This document shows, in pieces, positions 1,420 through 19,984 of a stretch of 20,034 bases of DNA (position 1 is the first letter of the stretch; each line of letters starts with the position of its first letter). The position numbers and the translations under genes were made by a program. The stretch lies in the IMG/VR virus record IMGVR_UViG_3300032738_000019, positions 1 through 20,034 of that record; one strand, 5' to 3'. This DNA is from a virus. Under the pieces are notes generated by a model. The model saw only the letters and a list, made by a program, of their open reading frames with translations. It was not told where the DNA came from and made no database searches.

Positions 1420-4400
1420 GCTATCCCCGCTGCTAGGCGCACGGACTGATTGCCCGCCCGCTTGAGCTTCACTGTCGTCTCGCCCCGTTTCTCGCCCTCA
1501 TAGAACAGATCCACCGTCACCCTCGCCCCGCTCTCGTCTAGGGCCTTGCGGAACGCGGCGGCCAGTCCCCCAGTGCCGCCGCCGCCCAGGTCCGGGTTGG
1601 TGTACGCTGCCTCGGGCACCGTCAGGCCACTGAGCACCGTCGGGGCGCCGAATGTGCCTGCCGCGCCGATGCCCCGCCCTGGATGCCACCCAACACGCCC
1701 TGCCAGCCGCCCATGGTCTGGATGCCGGTGACCATCTCGGTGAACACGCCCAGGCTGTCGAGCACCGCCTGCGGCTTGAGGCCCTTGCTCAGGGCGATCT
1801 CCTCGCCGCTCTTCAGCGCTGTGGCAATGTGGCCGAAAAAGGCCGCGATCTTTTCGACCAGCGTGACAGCCGTGTCCAGGGCCCCGTCCCAGATGGTCTC
1901 GATCTCGGGGAGGGCCACCTTGAGTTGCTTGCTGGCCTCTTTCATCTGCGTGATGAACCGGGCGATCACGACCTCGAAAGCGAACCGGCGCACCGTTGGG
2001 TCTGCCTTGCGCGTCTGTAGGGCCTCGAACGTCGAGGCCAGGCCCATGAGGTCCATGATCGGCCCGAGCTTTTCGGCGATCTCGCCGTTCAGGGCCAGGG
2101 TGTCCGTCTCGACCCCGGCCAACTCGGTGATGTAGGTGCTGCGCAGCTGAGACAAAAAGGGCATCAACGAGGCCATGGCCAGCTTGGCGTTGGCCAGCAG
2201 GTTCGCCAGCCCTGCCTGAAAGTCGCCCGCCGTGGTCTTGACGCTGAGGTCCAGCCCTGCCAGGCCCAGAATGCCGGTGATATGCCCGACGGCCTCGCCG
2301 CCCTTTTCCAGGGCCGACTTGGCGCCTTCCTCGGCCTGCCCCCACTTGACAATCAAGTTGTCAATGACGGGCATGATCTGGTCAACGGCCCACTCTGCGG
2401 CCGCGAGGGTTACGGGCAGGTTCTCGGCAAAGCCCTCGCCGATCTCCCCCGCCTTGAGCTCCTGGCTGCCCAGGCCCAGCAGGCTGGTGATGTGGCCGAC
2501 GGCCTCGGACCCGACCTGCAGCGCGCTCTTGGCGTCGCCCGCGGCCTGGCCGTACTTGGTGACGATGCGCCCCACCATCGGCAGGATCTGGTCAAGCGCC
2601 CACTCGCCCAAGCGCAGGTACTCGGGGAGGCGTTTCTCGTAGCCCTTCTCGGGCAGCTCTGCGCCCATCTTCTGGCTGCCCAGCCCCAGCAGGCTAGTGA
2701 TCCAGCCGACCGCGCCAGAGCCCACCTCGAGCGCCGACTTGGCATCGCCCTCGACTTGCCCCCACTCTCCAAGCATGCTCTCCACGGATGGCATGATCTG
2801 ATCCAGTGCCCACTCGGCCAGGCGCAGGTACTCGGGCAGCGTCTCCTCAAAGCCCTCCTCGGGGAGTTCGGCTTTGAGGTCCTTGCCCATCAGGCCCAGC
2901 AGCCCAGTGATGAAGGGCACCGCCTTGGACGTGTCCTCGTAGGCCTTGTAGGCGTCGGGTGCCAGCGGGTCATCCACCAACCCCAGAATCTTGTCCTTGA
3001 CCAGCCTGGCGAACCCGAACACCTGGTCCAGGTAGGTCGAGGCGTCGTCCAGAAAGTTCTTTGCCCCGCTTGGCTTGATCCCCGCCAGGTTCGCGCCCAT
3101 GAGCTGGAACGTGGAGGCCAGCTGACCAGACCAGACAACTACATCGTCGAGGATGATGCTGCCCAGGCCCGTCTCGGGATCGGTCACCATGCTCACCAGG
3201 CTACGCACGATCTCGGGGAGAAACACGCCAAGCTGGTCCAGGTAGGCCCGCATCTGGGTCATGTCGCCCGGCTTCCACTTGGAGAAATCGGTGACCAGGC
3301 TCTGGAGGATCGTACCCAGGCGTGTCGCTCTGCCCTTCATCTTGGTGATGGTCTCGGAGCCGACGCTCTTGACCACCTCTTGCACTCGGATCACCGCTTG
3401 GCCGGCTGCCCAGGCCCATTCGTCCAGGTAAGCGATCATGCCGCCGCGATCCAGCTCGCCCTCCTTCACGGCCTTGGCGCCTTGGGCGAATTGCATGAAG
3501 GCGGTCGACATATCCTCGATTCCGTCGGCGATGTCCTCAAAGGTCTCGCCGGCGGCCTCCATGCCACTGCTGCCAGCGACCATGGCGAACCGGGTCAGCC
3601 ATCCGACGATGGAGTCGAAGACATCCATCACGCCGCTAAAACTACCCTCGACCTGGGGAATGCCATTGCTGATACCGATACCCAAGCCCTCAACGATGTC
3701 CCCGCCAATCGCCATCATGACTTTCGACGGCGAGTGGGCGTCGTATTCGTCCTTGGTCTTCTTGGGCAACCACCCAGTGGCTTTTTCCCAGACCGATTTG
3801 CCAGTTTGGGCTATCTTGCTGTCGCCCAGGCCCTCAAAGAACCCTGACAACAGGTCGCGGCCAGCCTGCTTGATGGACTCTACTTCATCCTCGATAGACT
3901 GTATCCCCTTTGTGATGATCCCGTCCGGGTCGCCCGTAAACAAGGCGATGAACTTGTCTGTTTCCGCTACACTAAAATCTTCTAGCCCCGTCACCAACCC
4001 CAGTATCCAGTCGCCTATCGCCTTGGGCCACTCTGTATTGCCCGTAAGCCCGTCCATAAACTTCTTCATGACCCCGTTGAAGAACCCTAGAATATTGGCG
4101 CTGCTTTTTGTCTTCCCTGCATCGTCCGCGTCCGCATCTTCACCTGCTTTGTCGAAGATGCCCGTTATTGAATCCCACAGAGTCGTGGCGAACCCGCCAA
4201 CCAACGTTGACAATCCTTTGATGCCCGCTCCTATCACCGCTCCATACACGCCGGCGTGTGCCCCGGCAAGGTCCGGCACCTTTAGCAACAGTTTGGGCGG
4301 CACGGCCTTGAGTATGTCGAGCATCCCTGTGGTGATAGCAGTGGCATAGGCGGCCGAGTTCGCGGAAAGGTGCGTGGTGATGGCATCCGCCAGGCCAGAC

Positions 4401-6019
4401 ATCATAGTTGTGGCCAGCTCTGTGGCGTTTACACCCACGGATCCCGCCGTGGGGGCCCCAACGGTGGGCCCCTCTACGTCACCTAGCCCCTGGGTCTTTT
4501 CCAGAAGCCCTCCTACGACGCTGCCCACACTGTCAAGCGCTGGCCCAAAGCCATCCAGCATGGGGATGACGCTCTCTACGACCTTGGCCGCGAAACTCAC
4601 CAGCGGAGTGAAAAACTTTTCGATCAGCGGCGTCCCGGCCTTGATCATGAACGTCTCGATGGTGCCCTCCAGGGCCTCCATCGCACCGTTGAGACCAGAG
4701 GTGCGGGCAGCGGATACATCGGCGGCGGTCGAGGCCTCGGCGGTGGCCGCGGTCATCTCATCCAGCCCCGTCTGGCCCTCGGCCATCAGCGTGGTCAGCG
4801 CTTTGATGCCGTAGGAGCCTGCGGCCTTTTTGCTGAGAAAAGTGGAGGCCTCGTCGGTCATGATCGCCATGCCAGTGGCCGCGTCATACTGGACCTTGGT
4901 CATATCATTGAGAGCGCGGGCCGTCTGGGCCAGCGTGTCTTGCAGAGCCCAATACTGCCGCACCTCTTCCTCGGTGGCCCCTGCTCCGCCCTCTACCTTT
5001 TCCGTGAGTTCTGTGGAAGATGCAACCAGCCCGTCGTATTCTTCCTGCAACTTGTGAAACGCCCTTGACTGAGCTAGGGTCATGCCTACCGTAAGACCCG
5101 AGGTCGAAGCGTTCTTGAGCAGGATGGTCCCCAGCTCATCCATCATCTCGCCCATGCCGCGGATGTCACCTGTCGCAGTAAAGGCATGGAACCCCGCCGC
5201 GGCCAGAGCGTCCTTGGCTGCGGAGGCGGGGGTTAGTAGCTGCATCATCATCGACTTAAGCGCCGTCCCCGCCTCAGCCCCCCGAATGCCACGGGACGAC
5301 AGCACGGCGAGCAGATTGTTCAACTCCTCGAGGGTACCCATGCCCCCTAACGATTCGCCGTAGAACGAGGCAAACGTCGACCCCACAGTCTCCATGGCAG
5401 CGGCCAGCTCGGGAACGCTGGTCACCGAGGCGTCAGCGGACTGCACCAGATTGTCCGTGATCTTGGTGGCCTCTTCCGCGCTGATGCCAAACGTACTCAT
5501 GGTTGTGGCCAGCAGATCAGAGGCCTGATCCAGGTTCAGCTCTGATGCGGCCTGCAGGTCAATGGCGGCGCGGAAAGCCCCGGAGAGCTCCGCGCCCTCT
5601 TCCATGTAGGCGTTGAGGCCACCGGCTCCGCCGAAGATGTCAGACGTTTTGAGGCCAGCCTTGTAAAAGTTGGTCAGGGCATCGGCGCTCTGGCTTGCGC
5701 TGATTCCGATGAGGCTGGTGTCAGCACCCGTTTGGAGTGCCACGTCGCTCAGGTCGTCGAAACTGACGCCCGAGCCCTTGGCGGCCACCTCCAGCAACTT
5801 GATCTGCGTCTCAAAGTCGGCAGAGACGTCGACCATCTCCTTGATGCCGCCCACGATGGCGCGGCCAGCGAACAGCCCGGCCGCAATCCCGCCGACGCTG
5901 CCCAGTACAGCGCCCAGTCCCCCGACGCGCGTCTTGGCAGAGGCGATGCCCGCGTTCAGGCCCGTGCTATCCGTTTTCAGTTCTAGGACCGCGGTCCCTA
6001 GCTTTTCACTGCCTGCCAA
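1416..6019 (-). CDS. Tail tape measure protein, with a -1 discontinuity near its 3' end
   Basis: The first frame runs from the TTG at 6017-6019 (GGAG eight bases upstream) for 1465 codons to a stop at 1622. The C-terminal coding signal then continues in the -1 frame to the TGA at 1416-1418, which overlaps the distal tail start. The joined product would be about 1534 residues. The N-terminal 300 residues match the TP901-type tape measure core (ADFETQIKLLEVAA, ISASQSADALTNFYKAG, STFGISAEEATKITDNLVQ, SRGIRGAEAGTALKSM). A later segment AHSPSKVMMAIGGDIVEGLG is the motif seen in many tape measure proteins. Hydrophobic alanine/glycine-rich stretches follow the N-terminus. Four 70-residue repeats lie near the C-terminal quarter. 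Tape measures set siphovirus tail length and are ejected with the DNA. The break lies at the GGGG run 1672-1675. One more G would restore a single frame, so mutation or assembly error is likeliest. Confidence 0.93.
2150..2935 (-). repeat. Four tandem 210-bp (70-residue) repeats inside the tape measure gene
   Basis: A marker trinucleotide context (tgat after 'ggt', 'agt' or 'cagt') recurs at 2278, 2488, 2698 and 2908, exactly 210 bases apart. In protein the unit contains EYLRLAEWALDQIMP, a variable GxWGQ/KYGQ segment, GDAKSALEVGSxAVG and ITSLLGLGSQ. The unit nearest the N-terminus and the one nearest the C-terminus are the most diverged. The pattern suggests amphipathic helical repeats, so copy number would translate directly into tail length. 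Confidence 0.9.
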
Positions 6020-9967: not shown

Positions 9968-11767
9968 CTAGTTATTGCTTGTCGCGAGCTGTTCCCAGTT
10001 GGTCCCATCACTGAGCAGCACAACGGTGTCGTACTGAGCCAACGTGAGGTTGCCCGAAAGCATGAGCGTCGCTGTGTCCGTGAGAACCAGGTTGTTGTTC
10101 GCCGTGTTACGGATGATCAGAAGCTGCCCATCTGTGCCAGCCACAACGCTGTCCGTCCAGATATTCCCGCCGTTCGTGATCTCCATCAGCGTAGCGGTCG
10201 GGGTTATGGGCTCGTCGTTGAACGTCAAGATTTGCTCAACGGCCGTCAGCTGCAAGAAGTTGGACAGAAGAACGTTGGTCGCGGTCATGGCGATAGTCCC
10301 GTCGGCACTGTTTCCGATAGACTCACCCTCGGCTAGGGTCAAGTCCCCATCCTGTAGGTCGATGCCGCCCGTCGTGACGACGGCGCCGCCTGCCGATACC
10401 AGGAGACCACCGGTTGAAACCGTGATCCCTGTCCCGGCCGTGATGTCGCCCACCGTGGTCAGCGAGTCCGAAATTACCACGTTGCCTAGAGTGGTAGAGA
10501 GCCCTATCGTTCCGGCCACGCCGTTGTCTATCCAGGCGTCGTTTTCGAGGATGACGTCCCCGCCGGTCACATCCAGGCTCCCTGACAGCGAGGTCGTAGT
10601 GGCCGTGATCGCGACGATTCCATCTCCTAGCTGGCCGATGGATTCATCTTCCGACAGGGTTAGGGCCCCGTCCTGGATGTCCACCCCGCCGGCCGTTACT
10701 GTCGCACCGCCCGCCGAGATCAGGACTCCGCCAGCGGTAACCGTGATCCCCGTGCCAGCTGTGATGTCGCCGATGGTTGTCAGGGTGTCCGTGACCACGA
10801 CGCCGTTCGTTGCTGACAACCCGATCGTTCCGGCCACGCCGTTGTCGATCAAGCTGTCGTTCTGAAGGATGACATCGCCACCGGTCACGTCCAGAGCCCC
10901 CGACAGGGACACGGTCGTGGCCGTGATGTCGATCTGGGTGGCGACGCTGTTCCCGATGGACTCACCCTCGGCGAGGGTCAAGTCCCCGTCCTGTAGGTCA
11001 ATGCCGCCCGTGGTTACCACGAGGGCATCGCCCACAGTCGTGCCGGCGGTGGATTCCAGCGCAGCCGAGTACAGGCTGGCCGTGCTCGTCACGTAGCCCG
11101 AGGCACTGGCCACAACCGCTGTGGTATTGACCGTCAGCTCATCGCCCACGATCACGTCGTCAGTCGACTTGAGATCCGCCGACTGCACTTGCGCCGTGGT
11201 CGTCAGGTACCCGCTGGCGCTGGCCACGACCGCGCTGCTGCCGACGTTTAGATCGTCGCCGACCAGCACATCGTCCGTGCTTTTCAGGTCCGCCGACTGC
11301 ACCTGCACAGTCGAGGTCACGTAGCCCGAGGCGCTGGCGACGAACGCCGTGGTCGCCACGGTCAGGTCCGTGAGCACATCTACGCCGCTGTTAGCGTCAA
11401 TTGCGCCCGAACACACCAGGGTCCCGGCCGTCGTGATGGTCGTGCTGTGCACGGTCAGGATGTCTGTGCCCAGCTGGTTCTCGACCACCATGATGGCGTT
11501 TGTCTGCGCCTCGTACCCCTGGACCGTCAGCTGTACCTCGTCGGAGCCACCGTCGAGCAACAGCCCGGATGCGTTCGTGATGAACGCCCCGCTCTGCAGG
11601 TCAACGATGCCACCGCTCTTCACCTCTAGCTCGCCGCCAGAGTCCACGGTGAGCTTGCCAGACGTGCGATACACCGGGCCCATATAGCTCGGCGCACAGC
11701 TCACGGCGGCAAACACCGCCGCGATGACAGCCATGGTCAGCAGGAGCGTTCTTGTTCGCTTCGTCAT
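9968..11767 (-). CDS. Repeat-rich fibre-like lipoprotein in the capsid gene block
   Basis: 599 residues, ATG at 11765-11767 with GGAGG six bases upstream. The N-terminus KRTRTLLLTMAVIAAVFAAVSC is a lipoprotein signal with the lipobox AVSC (Cys24). Residues 32-140 repeat short glycine-rich strands such as KLTVDSGGELEVKSGGIVDL, suggesting a beta-solenoid. Residues 141-253 hold three 38-residue repeats; residues 254-500 hold two and a half repeats of about 107 residues. The C-terminus (DGQLLIIRNTANNNLVL, LAQYDTVVLLSDGTNWEQL) matches the end of many phage fibre or surface proteins. This is probably an elongated beta-structural protein, either virion-attached or displayed on the host cell after infection. 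The lipobox favours a cell-envelope location. No enzyme domain is visible. Confidence 0.7.
   Translation of the reverse strand: MTKRTRTLLLTMAVIAAVFAAVSCAPSYMGPVYRTSGKLTVDSGGELEVKSGGIVDLQSGAFITNASGLLLDGGSDEVQLTVQGYEAQTNAIMVVENQLGTDILTVHSTTITTAGTLVCSGAIDANSGVDVLTDLTVATTAFVASASGYVTSTVQVQSADLKSTDDVLVGDDLNVGSSAVVASASGYLTTTAQVQSADLKSTDDVIVGDELTVNTTAVVASASGYVTSTASLYSAALESTAGTTVGDALVVTTGGIDLQDGDLTLAEGESIGNSVATQIDITATTVSLSGALDVTGGDVILQNDSLIDNGVAGTIGLSATNGVVVTDTLTTIGDITAGTGITVTAGGVLISAGGATVTAGGVDIQDGALTLSEDESIGQLGDGIVAITATTTSLSGSLDVTGGDVILENDAWIDNGVAGTIGLSTTLGNVVISDSLTTVGDITAGTGITVSTGGLLVSAGGAVVTTGGIDLQDGDLTLAEGESIGNSADGTIAMTATNVLLSNFLQLTAVEQILTFNDEPITPTATLMEITNGGNIWTDSVVAGTDGQLLIIRNTANNNLVLTDTATLMLSGNLTLAQYDTVVLLSDGTNWEQLATSNN
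10268..11008 (-). repeat. Tandem 318-321 bp repeats within the fibre-like lipoprotein gene
   Basis: The anchor 'actcaccctcggc' (or its diverged form) recurs at 10321, 10642 and 10960, spacing 321 and 318 bases. The unit encodes GGIDLQDGDLTLAEGESIG, SLSGALDVTGGDVILQND, IDNGVAGTIGLS and GDITAGTGITV. Copies one and three are close to identical in DNA around the anchor while the middle copy is clearly more diverged. Only the first part of the third copy is present. Confidence 0.9.
11009..11347 (-). repeat. Three tandem 114-bp repeats within the fibre-like lipoprotein gene
   Basis: The word 'tccgccgactgcac' occurs at 11175 and 11289, 114 bases apart, and a diverged third copy follows. The 38-residue unit is VVASASGYLTTTAQVQSADL followed by KSTDDVIVGDELTVN. 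The third copy differs in its second half (SLYSAALESTAGTTVGDALV). Confidence 0.9.
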
Positions 11768-15549: not shown

Positions 15550-17894
15550 GGGGCGGGCGCCACCGGCCCCTCGCCCTTGACCACCGGCCCCATCGACCGC
15601 ACGCAGCGCGGGTGCGACAATGGCTGGTCCGCGGCCTCCTGGAAGCTCACCAGCCGCCCGTTGGCCACCAGCGGGTCATCGTGGAACGTCCAGCCGCAAC
15701 CCTCGCCGTCCCACACCCTGATCCCCGAACACTGCGCGTTCCCCTGAAAGCTCTTGATCGCGCTCAGGTTCTGCGCCCTCTTGGTCTCTGTCCTGGCAAT
15801 GGTCTCCCCGCGGTACATCCGCGCTGCCCTGTCGCCGTCTCGCCCGGCTGCCTCGGCGCGCGCAAAGATGCCGGGATACATGTGCCGACCTTCGACATAG
15901 GACCGGATGCGTCTCTCTAGGGCCTTGGCTCCGTCGCCGGCGATGCGCCCGTCGGCCAGTGCCCCGGTGATGGCCCGCCGCGTCTGATCCCCGATGCGCG
16001 TGATCCTCTGGCCGCCCTGCCGGATCATGTCCCGGGCCACGGGGTCGGGCAGCATCACGTTGACCGGCATGGCTAGCCGTTGCGCTACCGTGCCCAGCGT
16101 CGTGTTGATGATCTGCTCATAGTTGGCCTCGTACAGCGTGCGCAGCCCCGCTTGCTCCAGTAGCTCCTCGGGCACCTCGACCGTGACCACCTCGCCGCCG
16201 TCCGGGGTCATGCTGGTAGCCCAGGCCTCGTCTGGGTCAGGCTTCGGGACGGCCTCCTTTGCCGCCTCGCGCACCGTGATCTCTACGGCGTCAGCCAGCT
16301 TGACCAGCGCCCGGCTGACGTCCATCTGGAATCGCTTGGCCAGACTCCGCGCCTCGCGCTCGGTACGCTGCAGGTAGATGCGATCCGCGTTGCTGGCCTT
16401 GGTCTCGTCTGGGTACCGGGCCTTGCCGGCCCAGATGCGCTCATCCGAGCACAGCGTCTTGGTCGCGGCGCCCTCAAAAGGGCGCGCCGTCTCGGCGCCC
16501 GCCGCCCCCCTTCCGGGCGACTTCGCTGCTTTTTCGCCTTCGTCCTCGCCGTCATCGTCTGGCTCTTCGTCCTCTTCCTCGCCGCGTAAGTCCCCGGGGG
16601 CGATCTCGCCCTGGTCGCTGGTCGGCTCTGTAAGCTCCGGCTCGGGGGCGTCAGGTCCCACCTCCACCACGTTGATCGGCCGCAGGTAGATGTTGTCGCC
16701 GTCCTCGGGCGTCTCGCCCACGATTTCCTTGGCACGCAGAATGGTCATCCAGCCGCCGCGCACCGCTGTGTCCGTGCGCGTCCACTTGGCGTCTTCGTCC
16801 TCCTGCAGTACGCGTACCTTGCTGTCGTCAAAGCCTATCGCCGCCTTGGCCGGGTCCTCAAAGTCTACCAGCAGCTGCGACTCGACCTGCCCCCCCGTAA
16901 GGCGCTGCATCGGAATGATGTGTGACTCGTAGGCCAGCTCGCGCAGCTCGCGCAGCGTGGCCCCGACCTTGGTCTGCTGCATGCCCGTGCCCAGCCCCAC
17001 AACCGCCGCCGGGATGCCCATGACGGCACAGACGCGCTCCTCAGGGATCTCGCGCAGCTGGCCCAGGTCCATCTGCTGCGGCGACAGCGACACGATCTGC
17101 ATATTCATCGGCTGTTCCATGACCAGCGGCTCGCCGCGCTTGTCCCCGGTGAACTTTTGCCTAAAGTTCTCCTTGATCGCGTCCTGCTCGTCAGGGTTTG
17201 GCCCGGGTGTGCCCAGGTCCGCGCCGCTCGGGCTCAGGATCACCCCCGGCACGCCCATGTTTTTCAACAGCGCGGCGCTGAACGCCGCCGCCTCGTCATC
17301 GGTAAACACCTCGCGCCACAGCGACTGCAGCGGGGCCAGGCCCTTGCGCACGTTCTCGGGGTCCAGGCCCCATCGAAAGTGCACCACGTCCTCGGGCGCC
17401 AGGTGCTCCGTTTGGCCGTCTACGGTATAGTCATAGTGCGAGATATAGTCGGTGCCATGCTGTGACCAACGGGGCTCCGTCGTGGCCTGGGGCATCCACC
17501 ACAACTGCACGGGCGCGCCGTAGCCGTTGCGAATCTTGCGCCAGTAGGCGTTGCCCATGGTCTCCAGGTCGCCCATCGTGGCCTGCCACAGCAACTCGCC
17601 AGGATAGTACGGGTTCGGCCTCTCCAGGAGGGCCAGCAGCTTGTGCTGCTCCACGGCCTCCATGGCCCCCTCAGCGTTGCGCCTGAGTACCTGCACCGGC
17701 GCCTCGGGGAACGTCCGCATCACCCAGCCCACGCAGGCCATGACCACGGACGACTTGCGCCCCGTGCCCACCTCGGTCTGATAGTCGATGTCGCTCCGCG
17801 GCATGATCCACGAAGCAAAGGACCCCGCCCCCGGCCAGCGCATGGCCGCGCTAGCGGCCTTGTATGCCCGCCCCAGGCGTTGGATGATGTTCAC
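15546..17894 (-). CDS. Portal protein fused to a MuF-type minor head protein
   Basis: 782 residues from GTG 17892-17894, overlapping the terminase stop (GTGA). Residues 1 to about 430 are an HK97-type portal: an N-terminal strand region with SSVVMACVGWVMRTFPEAPV, NPYYPGELLWQATMGDLETMGNAYW, the EHLAPEDVVHFRWG motif, and EERVCAVMGIPAAVVGLG. An acidic hinge (EEEDEEPDDDGEDEG) occupies roughly 437-455. The C-terminal 280 residues are MuF/SPP1 gp7-like: TLGTVAQRLAMPVNVMLPDP, the RGETIARTETKRAQN helix (about 695-709) and the end CGWTFHDDP, LSHPRCVRS. MuF proteins are minor head components linked to genome ejection. Fusion of the two is known in some phages but unusual. Confidence 0.9.
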   Translation of the reverse strand: MNIIQRLGRAYKAASAAMRWPGAGSFASWIMPRSDIDYQTEVGTGRKSSVVMACVGWVMRTFPEAPVQVLRRNAEGAMEAVEQHKLLALLERPNPYYPGELLWQATMGDLETMGNAYWRKIRNGYGAPVQLWWMPQATTEPRWSQHGTDYISHYDYTVDGQTEHLAPEDVVHFRWGLDPENVRKGLAPLQSLWREVFTDDEAAAFSAALLKNMGVPGVILSPSGADLGTPGPNPDEQDAIKENFRQKFTGDKRGEPLVMEQPMNMQIVSLSPQQMDLGQLREIPEERVCAVMGIPAAVVGLGTGMQQTKVGATLRELRELAYESHIIPMQRLTGGQVESQLLVDFEDPAKAAIGFDDSKVRVLQEDEDAKWTRTDTAVRGGWMTILRAKEIVGETPEDGDNIYLRPINVVEVGPDAPEPELTEPTSDQGEIAPGDLRGEEEDEEPDDDGEDEGEKAAKSPGRGAAGAETARPFEGAATKTLCSDERIWAGKARYPDETKASNADRIYLQRTEREARSLAKRFQMDVSRALVKLADAVEITVREAAKEAVPKPDPDEAWATSMTPDGGEVVTVEVPEELLEQAGLRTLYEANYEQIINTTLGTVAQRLAMPVNVMLPDPVARDMIRQGGQRITRIGDQTRRAITGALADGRIAGDGAKALERRIRSYVEGRHMYPGIFARAEAAGRDGDRAARMYRGETIARTETKRAQNLSAIKSFQGNAQCSGIRVWDGEGCGWTFHDDPLVANGRLVSFQEAADQPLSHPRCVRSMGPVVKGEGPVAPAP

Positions 17895-19984
17895 CAGGAT
17901 CGCCAGCCTCGTCTCTTTTGTGCCAGGGCGCTTGAAACATATCTGATGGCGTCCATGGAGTGATCATTGTCCTTCACCGGCTTGTCGAGGGCCTGGCCAT
18001 CGCGCGTCTTGGCCCAGACGTAGCTCTCGAACTCACTCGCCGTGTTCGCGCAGGCTGGGTCCAGCGTCAGCCGTGGCAGCCCATCGCCCTGCACTGCCAG
18101 CCGCGCCTTGACGGCTTGTATGCCGTCCGTCACCGCGTTGTTCGCCGGCATAACGGGCAGACCCGCGTGGGCCATCGCTCCGATCAGGCCCGCCGCCGAG
18201 GGGTCCACGTAGAACCGCTCCACGGTGTAGCGCTCATGGATACCCACGCACTCGGTGACGAACGTCTCTTGGCGCACTTGGCGCTTGTAGAACTCTTCGA
18301 GCACGTGCGCCCTGCCGTCACCGTCCACCCCGATGACCAGCGCCACCGCTGGGTTGGTGTAGCCCTCGTCGACCCCGACCACGACGCGCGAGAACTCTGC
18401 CGCCTTACGGCGCTGTGTGTGCACGTCCCGGTCGTACTCGCCATAGATCAGGCCCTCGAAGGCCACGAACTCGCCGCCTAGCTCCTGGAGGGCAAAGTCG
18501 CCGCTGTAGGCCCTCTCTAGCGAGGCCACGAACTCGGGGGACAGGTACCAGTTGTCCTGCGTCCTGGCCTTGAATATGCGCATCTGATCGCGGCGTTCCC
18601 ATAGCCAATTGCGCCCCTTGGGTGTTGTCGTGATCCAGCACGGCCCAGCCTTGCCCCCGGCGCGCAGTCGGCCTATGAGGATGTCCCACGTCTGGCGATG
18701 GCATAGCGCGGCCTCGTCGATCCAAACGCCGCTCAGGTTTGGCCCGCGCAGTCGCTCGGGGTTGTCTGCGCTGCGAAACAGGATCTCGCTGCCCCCCTGG
18801 ACCGTGGCCACCATCTCGGCCTTGTTGAATCCCGTAAGGCCCCGGCCCAGCACCTCCCGGGCAGACCTCAGCGTTGCGTCCCGGAGCATGGGATAGGTTG
18901 GCGAGATCACACCGTAGAGGCCTGGATTCTCGCCACACTGGACCAACAGCTTGATGGCCCCCGCATACGTCTTGCCGCTGTTGTGGTGCCACAAGCCATG
19001 AGCTCGGTAGTGGTTGCCATCCGGCACTGACAAATCGTAGAAGTCACCGTGCCGTGAGTAGGATATAGTTGTTATTCTGTCCCAAAATGTGCTATAATAA
19101 GGCCATGAACAAGTCCGGGAACCATCGGGGCCGGGCCCGCCAATATGATTATGCTCTGATTGTGCACACCTTTCAGGAACTCGGGAACCAGCGCCTTGTT
19201 GCTCAGCAACTCGGGATGCTCCAGTCAACCGTATCCAAGATTCTGATTTCGCAGGGAATCCGAGTTGGCAAGGGCCGCCTACCTGTTCATCAACTCCCGA
19301 TGGATGAGATCGCAGACCGCTATCTGACGGGCGAGTCCACCATTGATCTCGGCCAGGCCTATGGCGTGTCACCCGAGGTAATCCGCCGACGCCTACGCTC
19401 TCACGGTACAAGTCGCCGCGGGCTAGTTGAGTCGCGCGCAACTGGCCCCAAGAATGCCCAGTGGAAGGGCGGAAAGAGTCAGAGAACGACCTTGCACTAC
19501 TATCGCCGCCAGTGTTATGAGGTCGCCGCAATCTGCTTTGGCCAGCCGCTCCCACAGGGATGGATAATCCACCACCTGGATGAGGACGCGACGCACAACG
19601 CTCCGACCAACCTCGTGGTGTTCCGCTCACAGAATGATCATGCCCGCTTCCATCAGCAGCTACGAAAGACCCAGCGGACAGGCGCGCAAGCGGACGCCAC
19701 CCTTCTGGCGTTAGGAAGCGGTGCTGTTCAGTTACCACAACCGCCGCGCCCGATTGTGTTTGAACACGATACAGATCAGCTCGCCCCTTCCGAAAAGCCC
19801 TCGACGCCATCGCTGGCCCGTGCAGCGTCGTAACTTGCCCCGCCGAGTCTCGCTCGGCAATCGGGACGCCCTCAACGATAGTCTCGGCGGCGACGCAGCC
19901 AATGCCGCCGATGAACGCCGTAAAACGCTCGGTACAGGCCACAAAGTCGTGCTGGGCTCCGTAGAGTTGGCGCGTTACCTCCAA
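17891..19984 (-). CDS. Terminase large subunit, interrupted by an in-frame intein
   Basis: 697 residues from TTG 19982-19984, with AGGA seven bases upstream; an in-frame TGA lies two codons before. The precursor has a 29-residue N-extein, an intein at residues 30-335, and a 362-residue C-extein, for a mature protein of 391 residues. The joined P-loop reads FIGGIG-SGKTYAGAIKLL. Other motifs: Walker B GVWIDEA (419-425), coupling motif WITTTPKGRNW (450-460), and RNase H-like nuclease residues in VVVGVDEGY (534-542), FYVDPSA (591-597) and DNDHSMDAIRY (672-682). It cuts and translocates phage DNA into the procapsid. Size and motif set fit a short TerL of the GTA/PBSX-like type. Terminase activity would require splicing. 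Confidence 0.93.
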   Translation of the reverse strand: MEVTRQLYGAQHDFVACTERFTAFIGGIGCVAAETIVEGVPIAERDSAGQVTTLHGPAMASRAFRKGRADLYRVQTQSGAAVVVTEQHRFLTPEGWRPLARLSAGSFVAADGSGHDHSVSGTPRGWSERCASRPHPGGGLSIPVGAAGQSRLRRPHNTGGDSSARSFSDSFRPSTGHSWGQLRATQLARGDLYRESVGVGGLPRVTRHRPGRDQWWTRPSDSGLRSHPSGVDEQVGGPCQLGFPAKSESWIRLTGASRVAEQQGAGSRVPERCAQSEHNHIGGPGPDGSRTCSWPYYSTFWDRITTISYSRHGDFYDLSVPDGNHYRAHGLWHHNSGKTYAGAIKLLVQCGENPGLYGVISPTYPMLRDATLRSAREVLGRGLTGFNKAEMVATVQGGSEILFRSADNPERLRGPNLSGVWIDEAALCHRQTWDILIGRLRAGGKAGPCWITTTPKGRNWLWERRDQMRIFKARTQDNWYLSPEFVASLERAYSGDFALQELGGEFVAFEGLIYGEYDRDVHTQRRKAAEFSRVVVGVDEGYTNPAVALVIGVDGDGRAHVLEEFYKRQVRQETFVTECVGIHERYTVERFYVDPSAAGLIGAMAHAGLPVMPANNAVTDGIQAVKARLAVQGDGLPRLTLDPACANTASEFESYVWAKTRDGQALDKPVKDNDHSMDAIRYVSSALAQKRRGWRSW
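19069..19098 (+). promoter_or_regulatory. Sigma70-type promoter for the antisense HNH gene
   Basis: A -35-like TTGTTA (19069-19074), an 18-base spacer and a perfect TATAAT (19093-19098) with TG one base upstream (TGCTATAAT, extended -10). The predicted transcription start is about 19105, the A of the HNH ATG, giving a leaderless mRNA. The promoter sits inside the C-splicing coding region, or immediately at its edge. Confidence 0.75.
19105..19833 (+). CDS. HNH homing endonuclease on the strand opposite the terminase intein
   Basis: 242 residues from ATG 19105-19107. A TTG at 19069 and an ATG at 19087 are earlier in-frame starts but lie upstream of the predicted +1. Residues 15-55 and 66-100 are two helix-turn-helix segments (GNQRLVAQQLGMLQSTVSKI; TIDLGQAYGVSPEVIRRRLR). 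Residues 115-183 form an HNH nuclease: the KNAQWKGGK loop, WIIHHLDEDATHNAPTNLVV (His156, His157, Asn165, Asn169) and SQNDHARFH (His179, His183). The core ends at about 19653. The remaining 59 residues, Pro/Ala/Ser-rich, are antisense to the intein's N-splicing segment and may be an acquired tail. Predicted to cleave intein-free terminase alleles. It is the only plus-strand gene. Confidence 0.9.
   Translation: MNKSGNHRGRARQYDYALIVHTFQELGNQRLVAQQLGMLQSTVSKILISQGIRVGKGRLPVHQLPMDEIADRYLTGESTIDLGQAYGVSPEVIRRRLRSHGTSRRGLVESRATGPKNAQWKGGKSQRTTLHYYRRQCYEVAAICFGQPLPQGWIIHHLDEDATHNAPTNLVVFRSQNDHARFHQQLRKTQRTGAQADATLLALGSGAVQLPQPPRPIVFEHDTDQLAPSEKPSTPSLARAAS
19842..19858 (+). promoter_or_regulatory. Perfect 6-bp inverted repeat just after the HNH stop
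   Basis: GCCGAG (19842-19847), five-base loop, CTCGGC (19853-19858), nine bases after the TAA. There is no T tract, so it is not a standard intrinsic terminator. The same bases encode intein residues 43-48 on the minus strand. A weak stop or an RNA-stabilising hairpin is possible. Confidence 0.35.

Follow-up and report, generated by a model that had tools for sequence, protein, structure and literature searches.

A phage terminase intein with a putative homing endonuclease gene on the strand opposite its middle

Inteins are usually regarded as single-chain elements whose splicing and endonuclease functions share one frame; at the locus described here the putative mobility gene is uncoupled and lies on the other strand. 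Dassa and colleagues reportedly described, in 2009, split-intein loci with a free-standing endonuclease gene between the splicing halves. Inteins in the P-loop of the mycobacteriophage terminase (TerL) are among the mobile inteins that carry a fused homing endonuclease (Kelley et al. 2016, PMC5050341). Insertions of the ShiLan type, found in phage methylases, contain an HNH gene on the same strand and out of frame, without splicing blocks (2025, PMC11855218). Antisense homing endonuclease genes occur in nuclear rDNA group I introns, and expression and cutting have been shown for I-DsqI (Lian et al. 2022, PMC9548176). An earlier note on this DNA, made from the letters alone, had remarked that such antisense genes are known from introns and not, clearly, from inteins; they are indeed established in group I introns, and a literature search of incomplete coverage (most subscription papers lay outside it) returned no report of an antisense endonuclease in an intein.

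The window (the whole stretch of DNA analyzed) is a 20,034-bp IMG/VR virus record whose minus strand carries phage tape measure, capsid, protease, portal, and terminase genes. Near its 3′ end the tape-measure ORF appears to change frame (1416–2345 and 1622–6019, minus strand): the tail of the long ORF, ASARQAHSAPRRCSVA, looks unnatural, and a plausible C-terminus, GIGAAGTFGAPTVLSGLTVPEAAYTNPDLGG..., is found in another frame; the break is either an assembly indel or a real frameshift. The ORF list also contains a 599-aa protein (9968–11767, minus strand) whose N-terminus is signal-like and which contains internal repeats (SASGYVTSTVQVQSADLKSTDDV...). A scan of the whole window against Rfam gave no family at its gathering score, and thus no ribozyme of a group I intron.

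The TerL ORF (17891–19984, minus strand) matches the profiles phrog_2 (5e-44) and Terminase_6N (1.5e-10) and is interrupted by an intein inside the Walker A motif (GGIG/C...HHN/SGKT, slashes marking the junctions). By ORF and translation, the N-extein (19898–19984, minus strand) comprises 29 codons from a TTG at 19984 and ends with the GGIG of Walker A; the C-extein (17891–18979, minus strand), with the ATPase and nuclease parts, begins with SGKT, whose serine is residue +1. The intein itself (19897–18980, minus strand) is 306 codons long, and the TerL frame is open throughout, from the Cys1 codon (19897–19895) to the last Asn codon (18982–18980) and the +1 Ser codon (18979–18977). Its N-terminal splicing half (19643–19897, minus strand) contains Cys1 and a block B with the T-E-Q-H signature (HRFLTPEGW at 19723–19697; the block is also given as TEQHRFLTPEGW), and its C-terminal half (18980–19102, minus strand) contains block F (YDLSVPDGNHYRAHG) and block G (LWHHN). 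The motifs of a class 1 intein are present (C1, T56-E-Q-H59, H305-N306, and S+1), and C1, H59, H305, and N306 are invariant in the 28 inteins compared. The Pfam Intein_splicing model matches on the terminase strand only; a match of PF14890 to the intein (1.2e-7) lies under that family's gathering score. The proposal of complete splicing blocks at both ends, in frame with the terminase, thus holds in coordinates and motifs. An independent contig (IMGVR_UViG_3300032608_000576) differs at two positions in 3966 bp, neither of them within the element; with the TerL and HNH frames intact in both assemblies, the frame break that might have undone the proposal was not found in either gene.

An AlphaFold model of the intein, built with an alignment of 28 related inteins, has pLDDT values of about 95–98 at residues 1–80 and 94–98 at residues 271–306, and mostly below 50 between them. 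The Hint (horseshoe) fold is confidently predicted at both ends. The best Foldseek matches are the Ssp DnaB and Npu DnaB mini-inteins (E 1e-6 to 3e-6), and the search groups the intein ends with DnaB and RecA mini-inteins. By its motifs and predicted fold the window intein is a complete intein of the class 1 type, and would be expected to splice. The sense-frame linker between the halves (about 19103–19642, minus strand) is predicted to be disordered, has no recognizable domain, and faces the HNH core on the other strand. Between the splicing halves, a Pfam search over 28 members found neither a LAGLIDADG nor an HNH domain in the sense frame; with only Intein_splicing matched and pLDDT mostly below 50, the sense-strand endonuclease fold that would have argued against the proposed arrangement does not appear in the linker.

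The plus strand of this region carries a gene (19105–19833), open from an ATG at 19105 to a stop at 19831–19833, for a 242-aa protein with two helix-turn-helix (HTH) domains, an HNH core, and a tail, assigned from profiles (HNH_3, 7e-5; phrog_7545, 2e-10). The PHROG and Pfam HNH models match the plus strand only, opposite the terminase. The catalytic motif (19570–19641, plus strand, placed by alignment) starts with a histidine pair (HH) at 19570–19575 and includes His157, Asn169, and His179, all three invariant in 33 HNH relatives; a solved HNH homing endonuclease (1u3e) matches the protein by profile with an E value of 0.004. The AlphaFold model, confident at residues ~11–50, 61–100, and 141–220 and uncertain over the last ~20 residues, predicts helix-turn-helix units and a strand-strand-helix HNH core. 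Foldseek returned no match to it below E 0.001, mostly HTH proteins being listed, and the HNH identity therefore rests on sequence profiles.

On profiles, open frame, and conserved catalytic residues, the complementary strand of the intein middle does contain the intact two-HTH and HNH gene that had been described there. The further claim, that the HNH core coincides with the region between the splicing halves, needs amending: the core faces the linker, but the gene is longer than that core, and its last ~60 codons (19643–19833) lie on the strand opposite the N-terminal splicing half, and the two genes thus overlap past the linker. In most relatives the HNH ORF also crosses the N-terminal half, with its stop between intein residues 2 and about 80, and overlap with conserved splicing blocks is therefore general. 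The central idea of the earlier note, one DNA segment serving as splicing linker on one strand and as mobility enzyme on the other, is supported, homing itself being the presumed function.

Which strand is selected can be decided, because position 3 of the HNH codon faces host position 2 and host position 3 faces HNH position 2. Substitutions were counted by codon position in 43 independent pairs. In the linker they fell at HNH positions 1/2/3 in the numbers 2392/1899/4250; counted by the host frame, the excess sits at TerL position 2, which is not what selection on the sense protein would give. In the splicing halves and exteins of these pairs, substitutions are most numerous at TerL position 3. 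Identity across the pairs is 60% for the HNH protein, 33% for the sense linker, and 54–60% for the splicing halves. In five pairs dN/dS is 0.02–0.26 in the HNH frame and 1.7–6.9 in the sense linker; the closest pair (L134 and L146) gives 0.02 and 6.9, and the window with L089 gives 0.20 and 1.69. Because changes in the linker gather at HNH position 3 and those in the splicing halves and exteins at TerL position 3, we conclude that the HNH frame is under purifying selection and that the sense linker is filler kept open.

How strictly the filler is kept open is evident from its stops: none was observed across 83 loci, versus 421 expected (a mean of 5.1 per locus after synonymous shuffling of the HNH codons). 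For the window's own HNH gene, 200 synonymous shuffles produced a mean of 5.3 sense stops in the linker, and 0/200 were stop-free. Sixteen antisense-HNH loci fell outside this count (intein start unrecognized, or contig end); upstream of the C-end these too are free of stops over the length that they cover. Each of the two remaining antisense registers, and each of the two remaining frames of the sense strand, contains hundreds of stops. Since the sense linker stays stop-free, translation of the host protein most likely runs through it, and all that it needs is to lack stops.

The arrangement recurs widely. IMG/VR, scanned by pattern for Walker A motifs that contain an intein C-end, yielded 185 loci, which were searched for HNH genes with a profile of the two closest HNH proteins (those of the window and L089) and then with one of 39 non-redundant antisense HNH proteins. 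An antisense HNH gene is present in 113 of the 185, and 97 of the 113 have a recognized intein start; at least 112 uncultivated virus contigs besides the window thus share the two-strand arrangement. The suggestion that homologs might reveal an HNH segment lying outside any intein is answered by these 113 contigs, in which it lies inside one, on the antisense strand. The register is identical in all 113, HNH codon positions 1/2/3 facing host positions 1/3/2. HNH_3 matched 33/33 HNH members and Intein_splicing 27/28 inteins. These results confirm that the antisense-HNH intein is a class, more than a single oddity or a product of chance. Most of its inteins are 259–384 aa long; loci with terminase-type C-ends and no HNH gene are mini-inteins of 128–174 aa or cut or unresolved records, and a sense HNH was found in none of the terminase-type C-end loci that lack the antisense gene. 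The hosts sampled were terminases in nine cases of ten; in the tenth (L136) the host is a phage clamp loader, and the class therefore extends beyond terminases. L136:1616-3451 resembles the loci of the form GPxGCLRGDT...HHN/CGKTTL, such as L162, L187, L194, L196, and L199. Weak sense-strand matches to HNH profiles were seen in other P-loop inteins (L024, L031, L055, L081, L083, and L110), where ordinary sense endonuclease domains are possible.

The C-end pattern (F or Y after SGKT) had 0 matches in 84,980 prokaryote species genomes and matches 49 viral loci; this C-end type is rare in sequenced hosts, zero matches not being proof of absence, and the element may occur only in phages that are lytic or unsampled. 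A query of prokaryote genome contigs with the whole TerL confirmed no relative, and single-sequence searches with the HNH protein or TerL yielded nothing beyond the sister contig and remote matches to HNH or TerL. No sufficiently similar intein was found in cultured phages; Brochothrix phage BL3 showed only a weak fragment match, in TerL.

Allelic states bear on mobility. Sampling of one related TerL family by its C-extein recovered empty alleles (GGYG/SGKT), mini-inteins of 149–159 aa, and 359-aa antisense-HNH alleles, the three states that had been sought among related terminases. The mini-inteins of this family are L203, L204, L207, L208, L210–L212, L228, L230, and L232. An empty and a full allele (L220 and L221) differ by an exact 1077-bp insertion, and the flanks on its two sides are 96.4% (1422 bp) and 95.6% (2570 bp) identical. 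In another pair (L090 and L105) the splicing halves are 82% identical and the C-exteins 38%. The pattern fits horizontal spread of the whole element with repeated loss of the HNH gene, the HNH enzyme being the putative driver of that spread; presence and absence could partly reflect loss instead of homing. In the window's own TerL family no empty or mini allele was found, and mobility of the window intein is therefore argued from its class.

Signals for separate expression of the HNH gene were also identified. A promoter-like site (TTGTTA-18-TATAAT with an extended −10 TG, 10/12 consensus positions; 19069–19098, plus strand) precedes the gene; three such sites were found in the region versus 0.6 expected. 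Transcription from it is predicted to begin at about the ATG (19105), which would give a leaderless HNH start. This evidence for a promoter is suggestive, and TGTGCTATAAT is also present upstream of the HNH start in the relative L143. Across loci, plain TATAAT before the HNH start is not significantly enriched (15 versus 9.9 expected). Shine-Dalgarno motifs precede the putative start in 19 of 82 loci, versus 4.8 expected and a maximum of 10 in 100 controls that keep the sense protein constant; HNH starts were assigned by rule, and the figures are approximate. Such signals point to HNH expression that may be separate from that of the terminase, in timing as well.

Taken as a whole, the window very probably contains a mobile TerL intein whose homing endonuclease is an independent gene on the opposite strand of the intein middle. 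Translation would yield a TerL precursor whose Walker A is interrupted by the intein; intact motifs and the predicted fold suggest that the splicing halves fold around the long disordered linker and excise themselves, leaving GGIGSGKT. The plus strand would separately yield the HNH enzyme, with its two HTH domains for DNA binding, and this enzyme may cleave or nick TerL alleles that lack the intein, at their Walker A codons, repair of the cut allele then copying intein and enzyme gene together. Selection would act on the HNH protein in the middle and on the splicing protein at the ends, the sense frame of the middle having only to remain open; loss of the HNH gene would leave a mini-intein of 128–174 aa. 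With somewhat less assurance, we regard the dual-strand class as probably widespread and long kept, at the Walker A of terminases and of at least one clamp loader, with the HNH gene always antisense and in a fixed register, an arrangement that would set the silent sites of the HNH gene against linker positions free to vary, permit expression from an antisense promoter of the gene's own, apart from the late terminase gene, and permit loss to a working mini-intein.

Other readings account for parts of these data. HNH proteins assist the terminase of cos phages, and the antisense protein might likewise be an active nuclease that serves the phage, as a packaging partner of the terminase or in attack on competing phages, and is merely housed in the intein; strong purifying selection on its frame would agree. 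Yet empty and mini-intein alleles without it occur in TerLs 79–94% identical, its gene lies inside a splicing element common to TerLs only 38% identical, and the class is present in a clamp-loader gene too, and we consider this reading improbable. Still more improbable is a decaying or untranslated relic in an intein inherited only vertically: mini-inteins without HNH are common, as a relic would predict, but the low HNH-frame dN/dS of all five pairs, catalytic residues invariant in 33 sequences, and Shine-Dalgarno enrichment before the start all speak against it.

We give very little credence to a reading in which the sense linker serves some function of its own, with the antisense gene secondary to it; the sense frame is held stop-free, but the linker has the high dN/dS of those pairs, 33% identity, predicted disorder, and no domain, and mini-inteins do without it. 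Long antisense ORFs are frequent in GC-rich genomes, and the window has many others, which might suggest that the HNH frame arose by chance from the openness of the sense frame, or from faulty assembly. This suggestion, the least credible of those weighed, is refuted by true HNH and HTH domains confined to the antisense strand, by selection acting in the HNH frame, and by the one register shared by 113 contigs.

The arrangement of intein and opposite-strand HNH gene has apparently been overlooked in many uncultivated phage lineages, because annotation retains just one ORF when two overlap. It provides a large natural collection of genes that overlap in antisense, in which opposing selection is resolved codon by codon, a testable case of endonuclease expression timed apart from a late phage gene, and, in mini-inteins with matched full and empty alleles, material for protein engineering and homing tests.

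As in the split-intein loci reportedly described by Dassa and colleagues, the endonuclease gene lies apart from the splicing polypeptide and between the splicing halves; there, however, the host gene is said to be split, whereas here TerL and intein form one continuous ORF that overlaps the endonuclease gene. The intein shares with the fused-endonuclease TerL inteins (PMC5050341) an in-frame class-1-type splicing domain at the terminase Walker A, a sporadic distribution, and an endonuclease between the splicing halves; theirs is a sense-frame domain, whereas here the sense middle is predicted disordered filler and the endonuclease an opposite-strand gene. ShiLan (PMC11855218) resembles it in an insertion open in the host frame, an HNH in an alternative frame, a disordered host-frame product, and empty alleles, but the HNH of ShiLan shares the strand of its host gene and comes without a splicing domain, whereas here it is antisense in an intein with complete splicing blocks. 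A parallel in strand is with the I-DsqI introns (PMC9548176), self-splicing mobile elements with an antisense endonuclease gene, as this intein is predicted to be; those are RNA introns with a His-Cys box enzyme in eukaryotic rDNA free of translation, whereas this is a protein intron whose opposite strand must stay translatable.
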